Positions 39,787-48,488 of a DNA stretch of 64,000 bases are shown one piece after another. A model generated the notes under the pieces. That model was given only the letters and a program-made list of their open reading frames with translations. It was not told the origin of the DNA and searched no databases. The stretch comes from Bradyrhizobium sp. ORS 285 (lineage in GTDB: Bacteria > Pseudomonadota > Alphaproteobacteria > Rhizobiales > Xanthobacteraceae). Within the stretch, counting starts at the first letter, position 1. The number at the start of each line of letters is the position of its first letter. The stretch spans positions 3,307,001 to 3,371,000 of the forward strand of contig NZ_LT859959.1 in NCBI RefSeq assembly GCF_900176205.1. The letters run 5' to 3'. The position numbers were made by a program, and so were the translations under genes.

Positions 39787-40575
39787 ATGCGGCGCGCAGC
39801 GATTTTGCGCAGCTTTGCCCGGCCGCCCTGGTGGGCGCTGTTCGCCGCGGCAGGCTGCGGCTTGCTTCTGTCGACCTATGGGACGGCGACGGCGACCGTG
39901 CCGCTGCTCTGTCGCTCTAGCGCGATCAGCGAGCTGACCGCGACGAACGCCGCCGATGCGGTCGCCCTCGCGATCGCGCTCAATCCACCGGGGCCGCTCA
40001 TGGCCGGCTGGGCGCTGATGTTGCTGGCGATGATGCCGCCGCTGCTCGCCGCGCCCTTGATGCACGTCTGGCGCTCGAGCCTGCCGCAACGCCGCCAAGG
40101 GTCGCTGGCGCTGTTCCTGATCGGCTATTGCGCGGTGTGGATGGCTGCCGGGTCGCCGCTGATCGTGCTCGCCGTGACGCTGCACATGCTGCTGGGCGGC
40201 GTCAGCCTGTGGGTGACCTTTTCGCTCGTGGTTGTGGCGCTGCTCTGGAGCGCCTCTCCGTGGCAGCGGGCGGCGCTCAACCGCGGTCACCGCCTGCAGC
40301 GGATCAGCCTGTTCGGCTGGGCTTGGGGGCGGGATTGCGCGCGGTTCGGTGTGGTCCACGCGCTGTGGTGCGTGGCCTCCTGCTGGCCTTGGATGCTGGC
40401 GGCCGCAAGCGCGGAGGATTGGCATCTTGCGTTCATGATAGCGGCCGGCGCGATCATGCTCGGCGAGCGCCTGGCGCCCGCGGAGCCGCCACGCTGGCGC
40501 TGGCCCGTGCTGATCCTGGCGCTCGATCCGCGCCCCGCTTGGGCGCCGCTGCAGGACCTGCTCCGCCATGGGTAG
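39787..40575 (+). CDS. DUF2182 integral membrane protein
   Basis: A 262-residue inner-membrane protein with about six hydrophobic segments and His/Met residues in them ('PLMHVWRSS', 'LHMLLGG', 'WGRDCARFGVVHALWC'). DUF2182 (COG5486) is described as a predicted metal-binding membrane family. It starts 10 bases after the tyrosinase stop and overlaps the caspase-like gene by 8 bases (ATGGGTAG), so the three are one unit. A metal (copper?) supply role for the tyrosinase is an inference. Confidence 0.85.
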   Translation: MRRAAILRSFARPPWWALFAAAGCGLLLSTYGTATATVPLLCRSSAISELTATNAADAVALAIALNPPGPLMAGWALMLLAMMPPLLAAPLMHVWRSSLPQRRQGSLALFLIGYCAVWMAAGSPLIVLAVTLHMLLGGVSLWVTFSLVVVALLWSASPWQRAALNRGHRLQRISLFGWAWGRDCARFGVVHALWCVASCWPWMLAAASAEDWHLAFMIAAGAIMLGERLAPAEPPRWRWPVLILALDPRPAWAPLQDLLRHG

Positions 40576-42583
40576 ACGCGCATGTCTTGCGATCGGGGTG
40601 GCGACCGTGCTGCCGGTGAAAGCGAACGAGACCTCGCGCTTCGTCGATCTCGATGGCGCCGTGATTGCGGCCCGCGCCATCGGCGATTGGGCACTGCGCT
40701 CGGGCTTCGGCGCTGAGAACGTTCGCGTCGTCGACGACAAGCGGGTCGGCGGCAAGGACAATCCGGTCACGGCCGCGCGCGTCCAGCAGGCGGTGGACGA
40801 ATTGTTTCCAGCCGGTGGCGACGGCGTCGACCATCTCTTTCTCGCCTTCTGCGGCCATGGCCTCACCGATGCGAATTTCGGCTCGATCTCCTGGCTGTTC
40901 AGCGACTCCTTGCGTGCGCGCTATCGCGTGGTCGCGGACGCCTTCAATGAGGAACTGCTGCATCACAACGTCCAGCGCATCACTCTCATCTCCGATGCGT
41001 GCCGCGAAGCTCCCAAGGATATCGACCTGATGCGGCTCGATCCGGTGCGCGGAATCACGGTCGACGGCGAGCGGGTGGAGAGCCCGAAATTCGATCGCTT
41101 CGCCGCCTGCCAGGATGGACAGCTCGGCTTCATGGTGGCGGAGCAGAACTCCGCCAGCCCCGGCAAATGCATTTTCTCAGGCGTGATCGTCGATGTGCTC
41201 TGGGGCAAAGAGCCCACGGCGATCAGCAATGACGTGATCACCACCAACAGCTTCGGCGTCTGCGTGCGCAACCGGACGACCCAGCGCGCCAAGGATTATC
41301 GGCTGAAGCTCAATCCGCAGTGCCAGGTCGATCCCGAGGCCGTTGTTCTCTACGACAAGAACAAGCCGCCGCCGGACAATGGCATCGAACTGCAACCCTG
41401 GCCGCCAGCTGGCAGCGCGTCCATCATGGGCGCGCTCCCGCCGGTGGCCGACGCGGCCGAGGCCGAACGCAACCTGGAGATGGTTCGCACCGACGAGTCG
41501 TTCCGCAACCGCGTTCTTGGGCCGGGCTTCGGTCTCAACAAGCTTGGCTTCGGCGTCTCGAAGGAAACCTTGCCGATCCCGCGCGCAAGCGAGGACATGC
41601 TGCATGACCTGGTCCGGCTGCGCGTCGCGCCGTCGGAGCAAAGCCGTACACAGGAGACGCAGCGTGCGGCGGATGCCATTGCGCTGCAGCTCGAGGCCGA
41701 CGCCGTCGCTGCTGCGCGCGCCAAGGCCGCCGGCGAATTTCGCCGCAGCGTCACGCAGATCAAGCCATCTCCCGGGCCCGACGGGTCCAACTTGATCATT
41801 GCCGGAGACGCCAAATTGTGGGCGCGGCAGCCGCCACAGGCGGGCCGCCAGACCGCGGCGCGGATGGGCTTTCGCGTCAGCACGGATCCTGCGGGATGGC
41901 CTGTTCTGGTCGAACTCGCCGACGGCAGCTTCGTGCCGGTCGTCCCTTATGACGGCCTGTATGCTGTCGTGAAGCAGAGCTCGACCGGAGACGTCATGCT
42001 CGTCTATGGCGAGCGCGATTCGCGGGACGCCTTCCGCGATGCGCTCGAGGCGATCACCGATTTCGCGGCGGGTCGGATCGGTCCCGATCGACTCGCCGCG
42101 CTCGCGGCGCGGCTCAGGCTTTCCAAGCATGCCGATCCTGCACTGGGCGCGATCTGTGCTCATCTGTATCGGGCGATGGCCGACTTCGACAGCATTCGCC
42201 GCATGGCCTATTTGTTCGTTGCGAACGGACAGGCGGTGCCGTTCGACGTCGCGCTGCTCGGTGCCATGGACGTGGTGCGCGGCCGCGACGGCACGCTGAC
42301 GCTCGCGATCCCGGCCGTGAAGGCGCGCAACCGGCCGGATGGCGCTTCGGAGCTGCCGGACTTCGTCATCTGCAGCACACCCGAAGCCCAGGCATCAATC
42401 GCGGGACGCTGCCCGTGGCTGGCCAGCGGCTGGGATTTCGTGACCGATCCGCGGCGGGCGACGGCCGCACTGGTCGAAGGTCTGGCCGAGCACGCCGCCG
42501 AGATCCGCCGCAGCGGTTTCACCGTGCTTCCCGCTGAAGCCGGCCGACAGTTCGCCCAACAATGGGGGCTGACGCCCCCCTGA
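40568..42583 (+). CDS. Caspase-like (peptidase C14 type) protein with unrecognised C-terminal region
   Basis: A 671-residue protein. Residues about 1-215 form a caspase-like domain: beta strand 'LFLAFCGHGLTDA' provides the catalytic His and 'RITLISDACREAPKD' the catalytic Cys. The rest (about 220-671) shows no known domain; it includes a stretch of charged helix ('SEQSRTQETQRAADAIALQL') and a C-terminal region rich in Asp/Arg turns. No signal peptide. Its start overlaps the DUF2182 stop by 8 bases, so it is translationally coupled to the tyrosinase unit. Substrate unknown. Confidence 0.85.
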   Translation: MGRRACLAIGVATVLPVKANETSRFVDLDGAVIAARAIGDWALRSGFGAENVRVVDDKRVGGKDNPVTAARVQQAVDELFPAGGDGVDHLFLAFCGHGLTDANFGSISWLFSDSLRARYRVVADAFNEELLHHNVQRITLISDACREAPKDIDLMRLDPVRGITVDGERVESPKFDRFAACQDGQLGFMVAEQNSASPGKCIFSGVIVDVLWGKEPTAISNDVITTNSFGVCVRNRTTQRAKDYRLKLNPQCQVDPEAVVLYDKNKPPPDNGIELQPWPPAGSASIMGALPPVADAAEAERNLEMVRTDESFRNRVLGPGFGLNKLGFGVSKETLPIPRASEDMLHDLVRLRVAPSEQSRTQETQRAADAIALQLEADAVAAARAKAAGEFRRSVTQIKPSPGPDGSNLIIAGDAKLWARQPPQAGRQTAARMGFRVSTDPAGWPVLVELADGSFVPVVPYDGLYAVVKQSSTGDVMLVYGERDSRDAFRDALEAITDFAAGRIGPDRLAALAARLRLSKHADPALGAICAHLYRAMADFDSIRRMAYLFVANGQAVPFDVALLGAMDVVRGRDGTLTLAIPAVKARNRPDGASELPDFVICSTPEAQASIAGRCPWLASGWDFVTDPRRATAALVEGLAEHAAEIRRSGFTVLPAEAGRQFAQQWGLTPP

Positions 42584-42667
42584 GAAGCTGGTCGGCGGCT
42601 CCGGCACGATGTCGCGGCAGCAGGCCAGGACGCGTGGCCGGCTGCCATCGCTCTGCGATGCGTGAGA

Positions 42668-43693
42668 TCAGGCCATCACCCGCTCGGGCAGCAGCTCGGC
42701 GATCTGCACTGCGTTGAGCGCGGCGCCCTTCAGCAACTGGTCGGCGGCGACGAACATCGCGATCGAATGGCCGGACGGATCGGACAGATCCTTCCTGATG
42801 CGACCGACCAGCACGTCGTCCTGGCCGGAGGCGTCGACCGGCATCGGGAAGTAGTTCTTGGCGCGGTCGTCGACGATGCGCACGCCGGGCGCGGTCGCGA
42901 GGATGCGGCGGACGTCGTCCTCGGTGATCGGCTTCTCGCATTCGAAGGTGATGGCCTCGCAATGGGCGCGCAGCACCGGCACGCGGACGCAGGTGACGCC
43001 GATGGCGATGCCCTCGTCCTCGAAGATCTTGCGGGTCTCGTTGATGACCTTGGTCTCTTCGTCGTTGTAGCCGGTGTCGGGGTCGATGGCCGTGTTGTGG
43101 CTGAACAGATTGAAGGCGAACGGATGCGGCATCACCTTGGGCGCATAGACCTGGCCGTTGAGGTTGGCGCGGGTCGACTGCACCAGCTCGTCCATCGCGG
43201 CCGCTCCGGCGCCGCTGGCGGCCTGGTAGGTCGAGATGATCACGCGCTTGATGCGATTCTGCTGGTGGATCGGCCACAGCGGCACCAGCGCCGTGATCGC
43301 CGCGCAGTTCGGATTGGCGATGATGCCCTTGTGGTCGCGGATGCGGCGGGAGTTGATCTCCGGGATCACCAGCGGCACGTTCGGATCCATGCGGAAGGCC
43401 GAGGAATTGTCGACCACGACGGCGCCCGAGCGAACCGCTGAAGGCGCGAACTTCTTGGAGATGCCGCTGCCGGCCGAGAACAGCGCGATGTCGACGCCCT
43501 CGAAGGAGCGCTCATTGAGCTCCTCGACCACGATCGTCTGGCCGCGGAAGGTGAGGGTCTGGCCAGCCGAGCGTGCGCTCGCCAGCGCCTTGAGCTTGCC
43601 GACGCGAACGTTGCGGCGGTCCAGGGTGGCGATGAACTCGGCGCCGACGGCGCCGGTCACGCCGACGATGGCAATGGTGGGATCTTGCGGCAC
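42668..43693 (-). CDS. asd: Aspartate-semialdehyde dehydrogenase
   Basis: Asd reduces beta-aspartyl phosphate to aspartate semialdehyde in the lysine/threonine/methionine branch. The 341 residues contain the NADP-binding 'IAIVGVTGAVGAEF', the catalytic Cys in 'IIANPNCAAITALVPLWPI' and the base in 'VPVLRAHCEAITFECE'. It starts with GTG (43693) after GGAGA. About 36 bases upstream lies an intrinsic terminator preceded by a Thr/Lys-rich mini-gene, pointing to attenuation by Thr and Lys. Confidence 0.95.
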   Translation of the reverse strand: MPQDPTIAIVGVTGAVGAEFIATLDRRNVRVGKLKALASARSAGQTLTFRGQTIVVEELNERSFEGVDIALFSAGSGISKKFAPSAVRSGAVVVDNSSAFRMDPNVPLVIPEINSRRIRDHKGIIANPNCAAITALVPLWPIHQQNRIKRVIISTYQAASGAGAAAMDELVQSTRANLNGQVYAPKVMPHPFAFNLFSHNTAIDPDTGYNDEETKVINETRKIFEDEGIAIGVTCVRVPVLRAHCEAITFECEKPITEDDVRRILATAPGVRIVDDRAKNYFPMPVDASGQDDVLVGRIRKDLSDPSGHSIAMFVAADQLLKGAALNAVQIAELLPERVMA

Positions 43694-43728
43694 TTCTCAG
43701 GTCTCCGGTTGAAATTTGGGCATAAAAA

Positions 43729-43757
43729 AAGCCCCGGACCTTCATCAGGCGGGGCTT
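43729..43757 (-). terminator. Intrinsic terminator in the asd leader (attenuator)
   Basis: On the minus strand AAGCCCCG ... CGGGGCTT is followed by a run of seven T. No minus-strand gene other than the mini-gene at 43788-43859 precedes it, and asd starts about 35 bases later. It fits an attenuator that stops transcription before asd. Confidence 0.8.
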
Positions 43758-43787
43758 CGGTTCGAAGATGGTCGCGATATCGTTCGA

Positions 43788-43859
43788 TTACGCGCGCACG
43801 CCTCCCGAGTCCCCCTGGGGCTTGGTGGTTTTCGTCGTGCGTTTGGTCGCGGTGAACAT
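43788..43859 (-). CDS. Thr/Lys-rich leader peptide upstream of asd
   Basis: A 23-codon frame ending in TAA 34 bases before the attenuator terminator. Its product begins 'MFTATKRTTKTTKPQ': residues 3-13 contain six Thr and three Lys, the end products of the pathway asd serves. A second in-frame ATG at 43871 is possible. The ribosome site is not strong, so translation needs proof. A sequence at its end, CAGGGGG, could pair with the 5' arm of the terminator (CCCCGCCTG), a possible antiterminator with a mismatch. Confidence 0.7.
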   Translation of the reverse strand: MFTATKRTTKTTKPQGDSGGVRA

Positions 43860-43964
43860 GGGGCGGACCATAGGGACGTGAGGTTCCGCCGTCAACGGCC
43901 CTGATCGGCCAAACACCGCCGATCGCGGTTGAATCGAGGACGATCCTGACGCAATAAGCCGGCC

Positions 43965-45113
43965 ATGAGCTCCCCAGCTAACGACCTTCCCAACCATTTC
44001 GAATTGCTCGGCACCGATGGCGCGACGCGCACCGGCCGGCTGACGACGCCGCATGGCGTGGTCCGGACCCCGGCCTTCATGCCGGTCGGCACCGCCGGCG
44101 CCATGAAGGGCATCCACTGGCGCGACGTGCGCGAGGCCGGCGCCGATATCGTGCTCGGCAACACCTATCATCTGATGCTGCGGCCCACGGCGGAGCGGAT
44201 CGCGGCGCTCGGCGGCCTGCAGCGCTTCACCGGCTGGGGCGGGCCGATGCTGACGGATTCCGGCGGTTTCCAGGTCATGTCGCTGTCGGGCTTACGCAAG
44301 GTCACCGAGCAGGCGGTGACGTTCCGCTCGCATATCGACGGTGCCAAGATCGAGCTGTCGCCCGAGCGCGCGATCGAGGTGCAGCGGCTGCTCAACTCCG
44401 ACATCGCGATGCAGCTCGACGAATGCGTCCGGCTGCCGGCGGAGCCCGCCGATATCGAGCGTGCGATGCGGCTGTCGCTGCGCTGGGCCGAGCGCTGCCG
44501 CCGCGCGTTCGAGAGCGCGCCCGCCGGCTACATGCTGTTCGGGATCGTGCAGGGTGGCGATGTGCCGGCGCTGCGCGTGGCGAGCGCACAGGCGCTGGTC
44601 GACATCGGCTTTCATGGCTATGCGATCGGCGGCCTCGCCGTCGGCGAGCCACAGGCCGTCATGCTCGAGATGATCGAGGCCACCGTGCCGGCGCTGCCGG
44701 CCGACCGGCCGCGCTATTTGATGGGCGTCGGCACGCCGGACGATCTCCTGGAGTCGGTGAAGCGTGGCGTCGACATGTTCGACTGCGTGCTGCCGACCCG
44801 CAACGGCCGCCACGGCGTGGCCTATACGCGCTTCGGGCCCGTCAACCTGCGCAACGCTCGTCATGCCGATGATGCCCGGCCGCTCGACGAGGAGAGCCCG
44901 TGGCCGCCGGCGCGCAGCTATGCGCGTGCCTATCTACATCACCTCATTAAGGCCGGTGAGGCGCTCGGGGCGACGCTGCTGTCGGAGATCAACATCGCCT
45001 ATTTCCAGCAGCTGATGGCCGGGATGCGCGAGGCCATCGCGCAAGGGCGCTTCACCGAATTCTACGAACGCACCAAGGCCGATTGGGCCCACGGCGATAT
45101 CGCTCCGCTGTGA
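43965..45113 (+). CDS. tgt: tRNA-guanine(34) transglycosylase lacking the zinc site
   Basis: Tgt replaces G34 by preQ1 in tRNAs with a GUN anticodon, the step before QueA. The 382 residues keep the catalytic aspartates ('[11 protein letters not shown]' and 'FDCVLPTRN') and the tRNA-binding core. But the zinc site is gone: where Zymomonas Tgt has Cys318, Cys320, Cys323 and His349, this protein has Ser311, Trp313, Ala316 and Ile342 ('[15 protein letters not shown]', '[13 protein letters not shown]'). All four ligands are lost together. The start ATG at 43965 is family-conserved. The gene diverges from the asd leader. Confidence 0.93.
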
Positions 45114-45214
45114 AATTGCTCACGCAATTCAAGGTTGCGTGATCCAGAATTGTCGTGCCAGTCACACGCCTGCAAGGTATCGCTATTATGATACCGTGAG
45201 CGCGGAGGTGGACA

Positions 45215-46608
45215 TTGGGCCGGCTGATCATTGTTTCCAATCGCGTCAACCCTCCATCGAGCGCGGGCGACGAGAGCGTCGGCGGATTGGCCATGGCGCT
45301 GGCGGCCGCCTTGCGCGGCAGCTCGGGACTGTGGTTCGGCTGGACTGGGAAAACTGCCAGTACCTATTCGGGTCAACTGAAGGTCGAGCGCATCGGCGGC
45401 GTGATGACCGCCACCATCGACCTCGACGAGGCGGGGTTCTGCAACTACTACAACGGCTATTCCAACAAGACCCTGTGGCCGCTGTTGCACTACCGCCCGA
45501 CCTCGCGGTCTATGACCGCGACTTTCAACACGGCTACCGGATGGTGAACGAGCGCTTTGCGGATGCGCTTGCGCCGCTCGTCGAGCCGGATGACCTGATC
45601 TGGATCCACGACTATCATCTGATCCCGCTGGGGCGCGAGCTGCGGCGTCGCGGGTTTACGAACCGGATCGGCTTTTTTCTCCATGTGCCCTGGCCGGCCG
45701 CGCAGGTGTTCGTCAATCTGCCCGAGCACCGCGATCTCGTTCAGGCGCTGTTTGCCTATGATCTGCTCGGCTTCCAGATTCAGGACTATCTCCAGGCGTT
45801 CGAGGACTACGTCGTCTCGCAGGCGGCCGGCCGGCGAACGGAGGAGGGGCTGCTCTCGGCCTTTGACCGTTCGGTCGAGACCGGCGTCTTTCCGATCGGC
45901 ATCGACGCTCCGGAGTTCGCGCGGCTGGCGCGCACGCAGACGGCGCGATCCAGCCGCGAGCGGCTGATCGGGGCGACTGCCGGCCGGAGGCTCATCGTCG
46001 GCGTCGACCGCCTGGATTATTCCAAGGGTATGGAGGAGCGCTTCCTCGGCTTCGAGCGCTTTCTCGCCGATCACGCCGAGCTGCGCAGCCAGGTGCTGAT
46101 GCTGCAGGTCGCGCCCGTCAGCCGCGAGCAGGTGCTCGCCTATCAGGAGATCCGAAGCCGGCTGGACGCGCTGTCGGGGCGAATTAACGGAGAGTATTCC
46201 GACGTCGACTGGACGCCGCTCCGCTACGTCAACAAAAGCTACCGGCGGGATGAGCTCGCCGGGATCTATGCCGCCTCATGCGTCGGGCTGGTAACGCCGC
46301 TGCGTGATGGCATGAACCTGGTCGCCAAGGAATATATCGCGGCCCAGGACCCGGAAGATCCAGGCGTGCTGATCCTGTCGCGGTTCACCGGGGCGGCACG
46401 CGAGCTGGACGCAGCGTTGCTGGTCAACCCGAACAGCCGGGAAGAAGTCGCGGACGCGTTGCGCCGGGCACTGACCATGGATCACGCCGAGCGCACCGCG
46501 CGATGGCTGGCGCTCTACGACGTGGTCAGCCGTAACGATGTGCAGGCCTGGCGGGACAGCTTCGTTGCGCGTCTGATGGCGACGAGCCGCCTTCCGATTG
46601 CGGCATGA
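45215..46608 (+). pseudogene. otsA: Trehalose-6-phosphate synthase gene with a frameshift
   Basis: OtsA makes trehalose 6-phosphate from UDP-glucose and glucose 6-phosphate. The first part, from a TTG at 45215 with GGAGG upstream, encodes 'GRLIIVSNRVNPPSS...' and ends in 'NKTLWPLLHYRP'; the rest, in another frame, continues 'DLAVYDRDFQHGYRMVNERF', 'DYHLIPLGREL', 'GVDRLDYSKG', 'YVNKSYRRDELAGIYAASCV'. At 45496-45498 one base is missing relative to an uninterrupted gene. Either the gene is inactive or the base was lost in sequencing. The end at 46608 is intact. Confidence 0.8.
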
Positions 46609-46765
46609 CCGGTACCAGCCGTTCGCGCGCGATCCGTCGTACAATTAACCCCGCCACGCCGAGAGCGCGGGGCAGGTGACGTGCCCGCAACGGGCAAGGG
46701 GGTGAGTTTTTGAGGCAAAGTCTGTCACGGGACGTGACGCTCCCCGCATCACCGTTACGAGCCGC

Positions 46766-46984
46766 TCAATTGCAGACGAAACGGCTCCTGAGCGTGTGCT
46801 TCGTCACGAAGCCGTAGCCGCAGGTGTCGCAGGTCCAGAGATAGCTGATCACATTGTCGGCCAGATAGGCCGAGGCCTCCGCAGCGATCATGGAGTCGGC
46901 GCAGACCGGGCATGTCGGCAAGTCGCAGCCGCGAGGATCGGGCCGGGGCGATGCGGTCGACACGAGATCAGCGAGTGCTGACAT
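46766..46984 (-). CDS. Small CxxC zinc-ribbon protein
   Basis: A 72-residue protein with 'CPVC' near the middle and 'CDTC' 28 residues later ('CPVCADSM', 'LWTCDTCGYGFVTKHTL'), a zinc-ribbon arrangement. AGGAGG lies just upstream of the ATG at 46984; earlier in-frame ATGs give a Lys/Arg-rich extension from AT-rich DNA and were rejected. Proteins like it are common and unnamed in Bradyrhizobium; function unknown. Confidence 0.75.
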   Translation of the reverse strand: MSALADLVSTASPRPDPRGCDLPTCPVCADSMIAAEASAYLADNVISYLWTCDTCGYGFVTKHTLRSRFVCN

Positions 46985-47519
46985 AGGGACCTCCTGAGGC
47001 GATCTCTTTGTTGTCGTTTTCTGTTTGAATGGCGTCAATTTGAGCATGTCGTTTTTCGAACTTGTCTCATTCCGACTCGTCCGATTTCGACGCTTCAAAG
47101 TTTCAACTCGTCCAACTTCCAACGGTCTGAAGTGCGTCACACGAATTCAGTCACACAAAGAGTTTGTCTGGTGGTCTCTTCTTATAGGATCCGATTTTGG
47201 ATGATCTGTTCTATGGAAGCGGCTTCGGGTGGCATCAACATTCTGCTTATACCATTCCCAAGATGACATCTTGCTGATGTCCGCTTGGGCCGCAGGCGAT
47301 GCACACCGTGAATCTCCGCCCTACTGAAGTTGAACATACACCCAGTCTGTTGACCTTGTCGCAACACAAATGCGTAGGTTTTGCGCAATTTAACGACGAC
47401 TTGTTGTGCGTCGCGATGATCGTACCATCGCGCAAACGTGCTTGCGCAGCGCAGCAGGCTCGCTGAAGATAGTCAGGACCTCTGTCGATACCGCGCCGAC
47501 GTGCGCAAGGAGTGATTTC
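46985..47519. other. AT-rich intergenic region upstream of cysK
   Basis: About 535 bases without a convincing gene and with clearly lower GC than the surroundings. The direct repeats 'ACTCGTCCGATTTC' / 'ACTCGTCCAACTTC' lie near 47075-47120. A perfect 15-base palindrome is annotated separately. A minus-strand frame at 47182-47388 is not supported by composition. Confidence 0.55.
47258..47272. promoter_or_regulatory. Perfect palindrome CAAGATGACATCTTG
   Basis: Seven-base arms around one base, about 250 bases upstream of cysK. It looks like a binding site for a dimeric regulator; no regulator or regulated gene is identified. Confidence 0.4.

Positions 47520-48488
<969 letters not shown>

Follow-up and report, generated by a model that had tools for sequence, protein, structure and literature searches.

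A probable threonine/lysine attenuator upstream of a second asd gene in Bradyrhizobium

Aspartate-semialdehyde dehydrogenase (Asd) makes a branch-point intermediate for both lysine and threonine. In the enterobacterial thr leader (Thr_leader in Rfam), a Thr-rich ORF, alternative hairpins and an intrinsic terminator are followed by an aspartate-family gene, and elsewhere the lysine (L-box) riboswitch governs genes of the lysine pathway. To our knowledge, which draws on a narrow literature search, textbooks do not describe lysine sensing by way of a leader peptide and its translation.

The accessible text of a study of Sinorhizobium meliloti (PMC10117765) describes SEP5, an ORF in a 5' UTR whose codons include six for Thr and three for Lys, whose translation was shown by Ribo-seq and Western blot and which was proposed as a possible leader peptide. 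The gene 3' of SEP5 is named 'aspartate dehydrogenase' in that text and is taken here to be asd. The trp attenuator of the same species yields a small RNA, rnTrpL, with its own targets, according to the accessible parts of PMC10117765 and PMC7143759. In the open literature searched (most subscription papers lay outside its scope), SEP5 was the sole Thr/Lys leader described upstream of an asd-type gene, and no such leader was described for Bradyrhizobium or dapA. Within the portions of the papers that were available, no mention was found of asd, threonine or Bradyrhizobium in PMC2965389, of asd, threonine, aspartate, attenuation or leader peptide in PMC4842269, or of threonine, lysine or leader peptide in PMC7143759; in PMC4117421 threonine was not found, and the asd matches displayed (12 of 19 places) stood for anti-Shine-Dalgarno.

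The locus described here lies in a 64,000-nucleotide stretch of Bradyrhizobium sp. ORS 285, hereafter the window. An earlier interpretation made from the letters alone (the sequence-only reading) had proposed a probable attenuator there and had regarded a Thr leader upstream of asd as not known for alphaproteobacteria. The latter has to be amended for Sinorhizobium, where SEP5 is in print (PMC10117765, accessible text), and holds for Bradyrhizobium in the open literature searched.

The asd2 leader locus

On the minus strand, from 43895 to 43693, the window bears in order a promoter-like site, a leader ORF and an intrinsic terminator, and then an asd gene, here called asd2, with GTG (43693) as its start codon (Table 1). 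The 11-position block with six codons for Thr and three for Lys, and the intrinsic terminator with seven U ahead of asd, were thus correctly described in the sequence-only reading; the terminator stem spans 43758-43728 and the U tract 43730-43724. The leader AUG lies 7 nt 3' of the -10 box, and the asd2 transcript is therefore probably leaderless or nearly so, with a start site placed by this spacing.

Table 1. Features of the asd2 leader region and its neighbours (window coordinates)
Feature	Coordinates	Strand	Basis
Promoter-like site, sigma-70 type, TTGACG-N17-TATGGT	43867..43895	-	consensus match and conserved spacing
Leader ORF MFTATKRTTKTTKPQGDSGGVRA (then stop), 23 codons, AUG near predicted transcript 5' end	43788..43859	-	
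Control codons 3-13, six Thr and three Lys	43821..43853	-	in-frame dN/dS
Hairpin 1:2 (anti-antiterminator)	43801..43828	-	predicted local fold
Antiterminator 2:3, region 2 and terminator 5' arm	43751..43814	-	predicted pairing
Intrinsic terminator 3:4 and seven U	43724..43758	-	sequence, folding, conservation
asd2, aspartate-semialdehyde dehydrogenase, second copy	42668..43693	-	TIGR01296 and NF011456 above cut-off
tgt, divergent neighbour	43965..45113	+	TIGR00430, 445.1 bits (cut-off 306.75)

The terminator call rests on sequence, folding (stem energy -18.5 kcal/mol in the window leader) and conservation. Hairpin 3:4 was absent from the output of a simple terminator scan, probably because its loop is longer than the limit of 8 used there. 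The overall stability of the window leader showed no excess over expectation (z -0.95). Rfam covariance models gave zero matches at E up to 1 in positions 40000-48000 of the window and no gathering-level match in eight related loci, and control of asd2 by a lysine riboswitch or a T-box was rejected on this ground.

The asd2 gene is a paralogue, at 43% identity, of the asd gene at G000:C1:7291051, and each of the 25 genomes of the genus searched has asd2 plus a further asd, here asd1, at about 44% identity. Among 198 genomes of the family, asd2 was found in all 11 members of the genus and in one more genome (G114, 80%); G076 has a 50% relative without leader. No Thr-rich ORF was present upstream of asd1 in the window's genome. 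When asd2 was traced by protein similarity, no outside source emerged among the 120 listed of 8000 close relatives, of which the named ones were Bradyrhizobium. Upstream of hom and of aspartokinase-family genes, a Thr-rich ORF was found at none of 30 loci for hom, 19 of which belong to the genus, and at none of four AA_kinase loci, the best upstream ORF in these two sets, scored for Thr, having 3 Thr in 12.

Conservation, codon-level selection and modelled switch

Conservation was assessed in 115 asd2 loci, defined as asd at least 79% identical, a set that counts the window and omits one duplicate. They were drawn from the best 80 of 457 asd relatives (L001-L080), comprising 78 titled Bradyrhizobium, one Frankia sp. 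RB7 and one Bradyrhizobiaceae MAG, and from a second genome set that may overlap with this one. Leader ORF and terminator were kept in 115/115 loci (103 distinct leaders), contrary to what the sequence-only reading had named as evidence against itself, and the terminator sequence GGGGCTTTT was present in all of them. A 17-nt promoter spacer together with an ATG 7-9 nt past the -10 box was found in 112 loci; as to the other three, the script took a wrong ATG in L046 and L065, and one locus has a 15-nt spacer. In L112 the leader ORF bears a one-base deletion that alters its C-terminal frame. Among 110 aligned leader peptides (the alignment skips L007, L046, L050, L065 and L112), K6, K10 and T11 were each kept in 109, T5 in 106 and T8 in 104.

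A repeat-like insert of about 50 nt, CATGATCCGGAAAAGTGG...CGGTTTTCCG...ATCATGC, separates the terminator from the asd2 start in 15 loci. It was recognized by eye in L010, L012, L013, L015, L016, L018, L020, L039, L048, L050, L051, L056 and L074, and its presence in L091 and L097 is suggested by a longer terminator-to-asd distance.

Codon-level analysis covered 113 loci, 67 of them distinct (L050 and L120 were left out). The dN/dS ratio was 0.43 in frame for codons 5-12, versus 1.41 and 1.97 out of frame, and 0.55 for codons 3-13, versus 1.19 and 2.44; for codons 14-22 the in-frame value was 2.07. Judged by these ratios, in-frame selection is confined to the Thr/Lys block: it is the peptide that is selected in the first half of the ORF, and codons 14-22 lack such selection, as expected if region 2 is constrained at the RNA level. 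The Lys codon was AAA at both position 6 and position 10 in 113/113 aligned loci, and the window's Lys13 was replaced by Thr in 72 of the 113. L120, outside this set, has Gln at codon 6.

In 32 printed leaders, the predicted energies were about -7 to -14 kcal/mol for hairpin 1:2, about -20 to -32 for 2:3 and about -16 to -21 for 3:4. A local hairpin in the 1:2 region was predicted in all 32, in differing registers, and in 24 leaders picked from the 103 distinct ones its energy was no better than that of shuffles (mean z -0.17). In the same 24 the GCCCCG terminator arm paired with region 2 over at least 4 bp in every case, versus about 32% of shuffles, and the mean z of 2:3 was -1.6; in two of them, L066 (z +0.3) and L053 (z -0.2), 2:3 was not more stable than shuffles. 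Tests for covariation in the leader hairpins found none, the pairs showing almost no variation among the 13 leaders analysed; in one of the alignments (A2) the L001 row begins seven bases late, with no effect on the columns under test. RNAalifold gave little consensus structure for the leader alignment because hairpin 1:2 changes register between clades.

The switch was modelled by masking a ribosome, with five footprints, on transcripts of 50 of the 103 distinct leaders cut before the terminator 3' arm. With the A-site on codons 3-11, the terminator 5' arm was paired upstream, with medians of at least 0.83 for four of the five footprints and a value of 0.67 at codon 11 for the longest; from codon 15 onward it was unpaired (0-0.01) for all five. 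In full-length folding of the 103 leaders, median P(terminator) had its main dip at A-site codons 10 (0.48) and 11 (0.14) and a mild one at codons 4-5 (0.62 and 0.72), and was at least 0.96 for codons 13-23. The window leader differed from the median, P(terminator) in full-length folding being low at codons 3-9 and high from codon 10, and its switch in cut transcripts was weaker (0.65-0.69 at codons 3-11, 0.29-0.47 at codons 13-16). Without a ribosome its full-length P(terminator) was 0.13, and in cut transcripts the pairing of the arm was 0.64 for this leader and 0.24-0.91 for five others. Since ribosome-free cut transcripts mostly pair the arm, termination without translation would have to rely on kinetics. 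These models are mostly consistent with mutually exclusive hairpins 1:2, 2:3 and 3:4 that would flip at about the end of the Thr/Lys block.

Related leaders upstream of dapA2 and of asd in other families

Searches with a covariance model for the asd2 leader gave weaker matches, over its full length, 5' of a DapA-like gene, here dapA2, with cross-hits between the two leaders at 1.9e-6 and 7e-4. The dapA2 protein of G000 narrowly passes TIGR00674 dapA (211.7 versus 206.15 bits). The gene was found in 18 of 19 genus genomes searched (17 others at 61-67%) and was absent from G006; four of the 18 matches report one internal TAG. Other DapA-like genes coexist with it, e.g. one of about 31-33% identity. 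In-frame AAA AAA precedes the hairpin in 18/18 dapA2 loci, and a promoter-like site lies 6-9 nt ahead of the leader ATG in all 18. At G000:C1:784569-784705 (L283) and in L288-L305, a near-leaderless ORF (e.g. MITKSCAIVSKKGPHPGTSDFCAR, then stop) with the tandem AAA AAA is followed by a terminator and dapA2.

Modelling of cut dapA2 transcripts gave 0.98 on the codon preceding the Lys pair and on both Lys codons, 0.04 at the next codon and about 0.5 further upstream; full-length folding gave the terminator at every ribosome position. The dapA2 leader is a candidate lysine attenuator, and the Lys pair in this related leader supports lysine sensing by the asd2 leader.

A covariance model built from the dapA2 leaders (R2) had strong matches in 22 of 23 genus genomes, the downstream gene being unchecked in G019-G022. 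Its weaker matches include the leader of a DUF1127 gene (PF06568) and one asd2 leader (G019, 7e-4). Leader ORFs with terminator-like hairpins were observed upstream of DUF1127-domain genes (PF06568) at G000:C1:4222860-4222988 and 4223741-4223860 (L284), and a similar pair occurs at G021:C1:6600150-6600291 (L285), where the downstream start reads into a short frame; an example of these ORFs is MIKSSRTFNRNHMTRFGWAVGGVAR, then stop. In other genera (G045, G089 and G147; L279-L281), related leaders precede a DapA-like frame and have a single Lys codon, at codon 11, among otherwise different residues (MIIRIVHLVSKNRACFGAGDARAR, then stop).

Thr/Lys leaders also occur upstream of ordinary asd. ORFs in which five or more of 12 residues are Thr were present in 39 of 70 loci, versus 0.9% of dinucleotide shuffles, and in 15 of the order's 27 families sampled. 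The sample is non-random: 29 loci are best matches to the asd of G028, itself with such a leader, three (L107, L109 and L110) came from the asd search covering the 25 genus genomes, and 38 were chosen across families after leaders had been noticed in three of those families. Of the 38 chosen loci 25 reach five Thr. This occurrence, together with the second-copy status of the window's asd, adds to what the sequence-only reading had described. In other orders of the class 1 of 28 loci qualified, namely L221 (G413; ...APTTTKKTKTVA, then stop).

Among the non-Thr residues of the T-rich leaders, Lys accounts for 37% and Arg for 7%, versus 3% and 21% in shuffles, with the choice of scoring window breaking ties towards Lys in leaders and shuffles alike; Asn accounts for 0.4%, and Glu and Gln for none. 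By way of reference, asd2 and tgt together have 19 K and 58 R. The Lys codons of the 39 leaders are AAA 66 times and AAG 18 times. The T/K block ends at most 3 residues from the stop codon in 34 of the 39, a U tract occurs in one, and the asd start lies 81-210 nt 3' of the ORF. In 37 printed folds inspected by eye, a pyrimidine-rich segment between ORF and asd often had two GGGGAGAG-like segments as alternative pairing partners. These leaders perhaps represent a second architecture, translational or Rho-linked. The 39 loci, among L107, L109, L110 and L140-L208, mostly have leaders without U tract and with alternative CUCUCCCC/GGGGAGAG hairpins.

Proposed mechanism, alternatives and comparison with known systems

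The asd2 leader is probably a ribosome-mediated transcription attenuator whose signal is the charging of tRNA-Thr and tRNA-Lys. The probable attenuator of the sequence-only reading is supported by its conservation, by selection in one frame, by where the control codons lie and by the mutually exclusive hairpins of the model, and the translated Thr/Lys-rich ORF upstream of an asd-type gene in S. meliloti is in line with it; the weak switch of the window's own leader, with its arm paired without a ribosome, lowers our confidence slightly. For the start site, translation and amino-acid response we infer the following course. RNA polymerase would start at or beside the leader AUG, and a ribosome would load on the resulting near-leaderless RNA. 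In a shortage of either amino acid it would stall within codons 3-13, region 2 (the end of the ORF) would pair with region 3 (the terminator 5' arm) and asd2 would be transcribed. With plentiful Thr and Lys, the ribosome would move past codon 13 and cover region 2, so that 3:4 would form and transcription would halt ahead of asd2.

The case for lysine sensing rests on codon conservation, and AAA could instead be kept for its lack of structure. An attenuator that senses threonine only, its Lys codons being tolerated since AAA leaves the control region unstructured, would suit the excess of Thr over Lys codons and the frequent Thr in place of Lys13. The invariant AAA at codons 6 and 10, the share of Lys in T-rich leaders of other families, where other A-rich codons are rare, and the related Lys-pair leader upstream of dapA2 argue against it, and we consider it rather unlikely. 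In a further alternative, the terminator would yield a small RNA constitutively, or a weak transcript of asd2, and the ORF codons would have no sensory role. Leader-derived small RNAs with their own targets are known, as for S. meliloti rnTrpL (accessible parts of PMC10117765 and PMC7143759), but here in-frame selection falls in the Thr/Lys block and the modelled hairpin switch sits at its end, which makes this explanation improbable; an additional trans-acting role of the leader RNA beside attenuation is possible.

That the hairpin is an ordinary terminator of an upstream gene, with the leader ORF arising by chance, is barely credible. In the window tgt is divergent and therefore no minus-strand gene ends right 5' of the terminator; the promoter-like site, moreover, lies in between. 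The argument of the sequence-only reading that, from gene direction, the terminator makes sense only as attenuation stands for the window. It does not carry over to all loci: tgt was found upstream and divergent in 16 of the 115, and among the other 99, 12 were printed, in 9 of which the longest upstream open frame (an open frame, not a gene call) is co-directional with asd, as an upstream-gene terminator would have it. Leader ORF and terminator nevertheless accompany asd2 both with and without upstream tgt, and the frame-specific selection also speaks against chance.

In a broader reading, which could as well prove wrong as right, attenuation at asd2 would belong to a Lys/Thr starvation circuit of second copies in Bradyrhizobium, with asd2 under a Thr and Lys attenuator, dapA2 under a Lys attenuator with an AAA pair, and housekeeping copies without such a leader (as seen for asd1 in the window's genome). 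Across the order, Thr/Lys leader peptides would have come to control asd by means of two or more unlike RNA architectures: the terminator type of Bradyrhizobium asd2 and a block-at-stop type, hardly ever with a U tract and with alternative hairpins towards the asd start, that would probably act on translation or by Rho. If so, a gene at the branch point, read via codons for the products of both branches, would act as a simple sensor with two inputs, whose predicted control codons are few, nearly invariant and found in harmless soil bacteria, which makes them directly testable, and leader-bearing extra copies of asd and dapA would suggest why Bradyrhizobium retains duplicates. Attenuation is well known as a kind of control; lysine sensing and the parallel dapA2 leader are probably the most interesting parts.

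With the thr operon attenuator the asd2 leader shares the Thr-rich ORF, intrinsic terminator and downstream aspartate-family gene and, in the models, alternative hairpins. It differs in having Thr and Lys rather than Thr and Ile codons, in being probably near-leaderless, in preceding a single gene and in its alphaproteobacterial host, and Rfam Thr_leader had no match to it in positions 40000-48000 at E up to 1. The lysine riboswitch likewise had no Rfam match, and the proposed sensor of asd2 is a translating ribosome. The trpL/rnTrpL system (PMC10117765, accessible text) concerns another gene, as a Trp attenuator upstream of trpE, and shares with the asd2 leader, as predicted here, a leaderless ORF starting from its AUG and an attenuator RNA, and also an alphaproteobacterial host of the same order. 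SEP5, as presented in the accessible text of PMC10117765, is like the asd2 leader a Thr/Lys-rich ORF upstream of an asd-type gene. It is called conserved only in Sinorhizobium there, with no terminator or mechanism described, whereas the asd2 leader has a terminator and precedes a paralogue; its cluster lies near the 3' end of the ORF and that of the asd2 leader near the start. Because of this position of its cluster, SEP5 fits the block-at-stop group of leaders.
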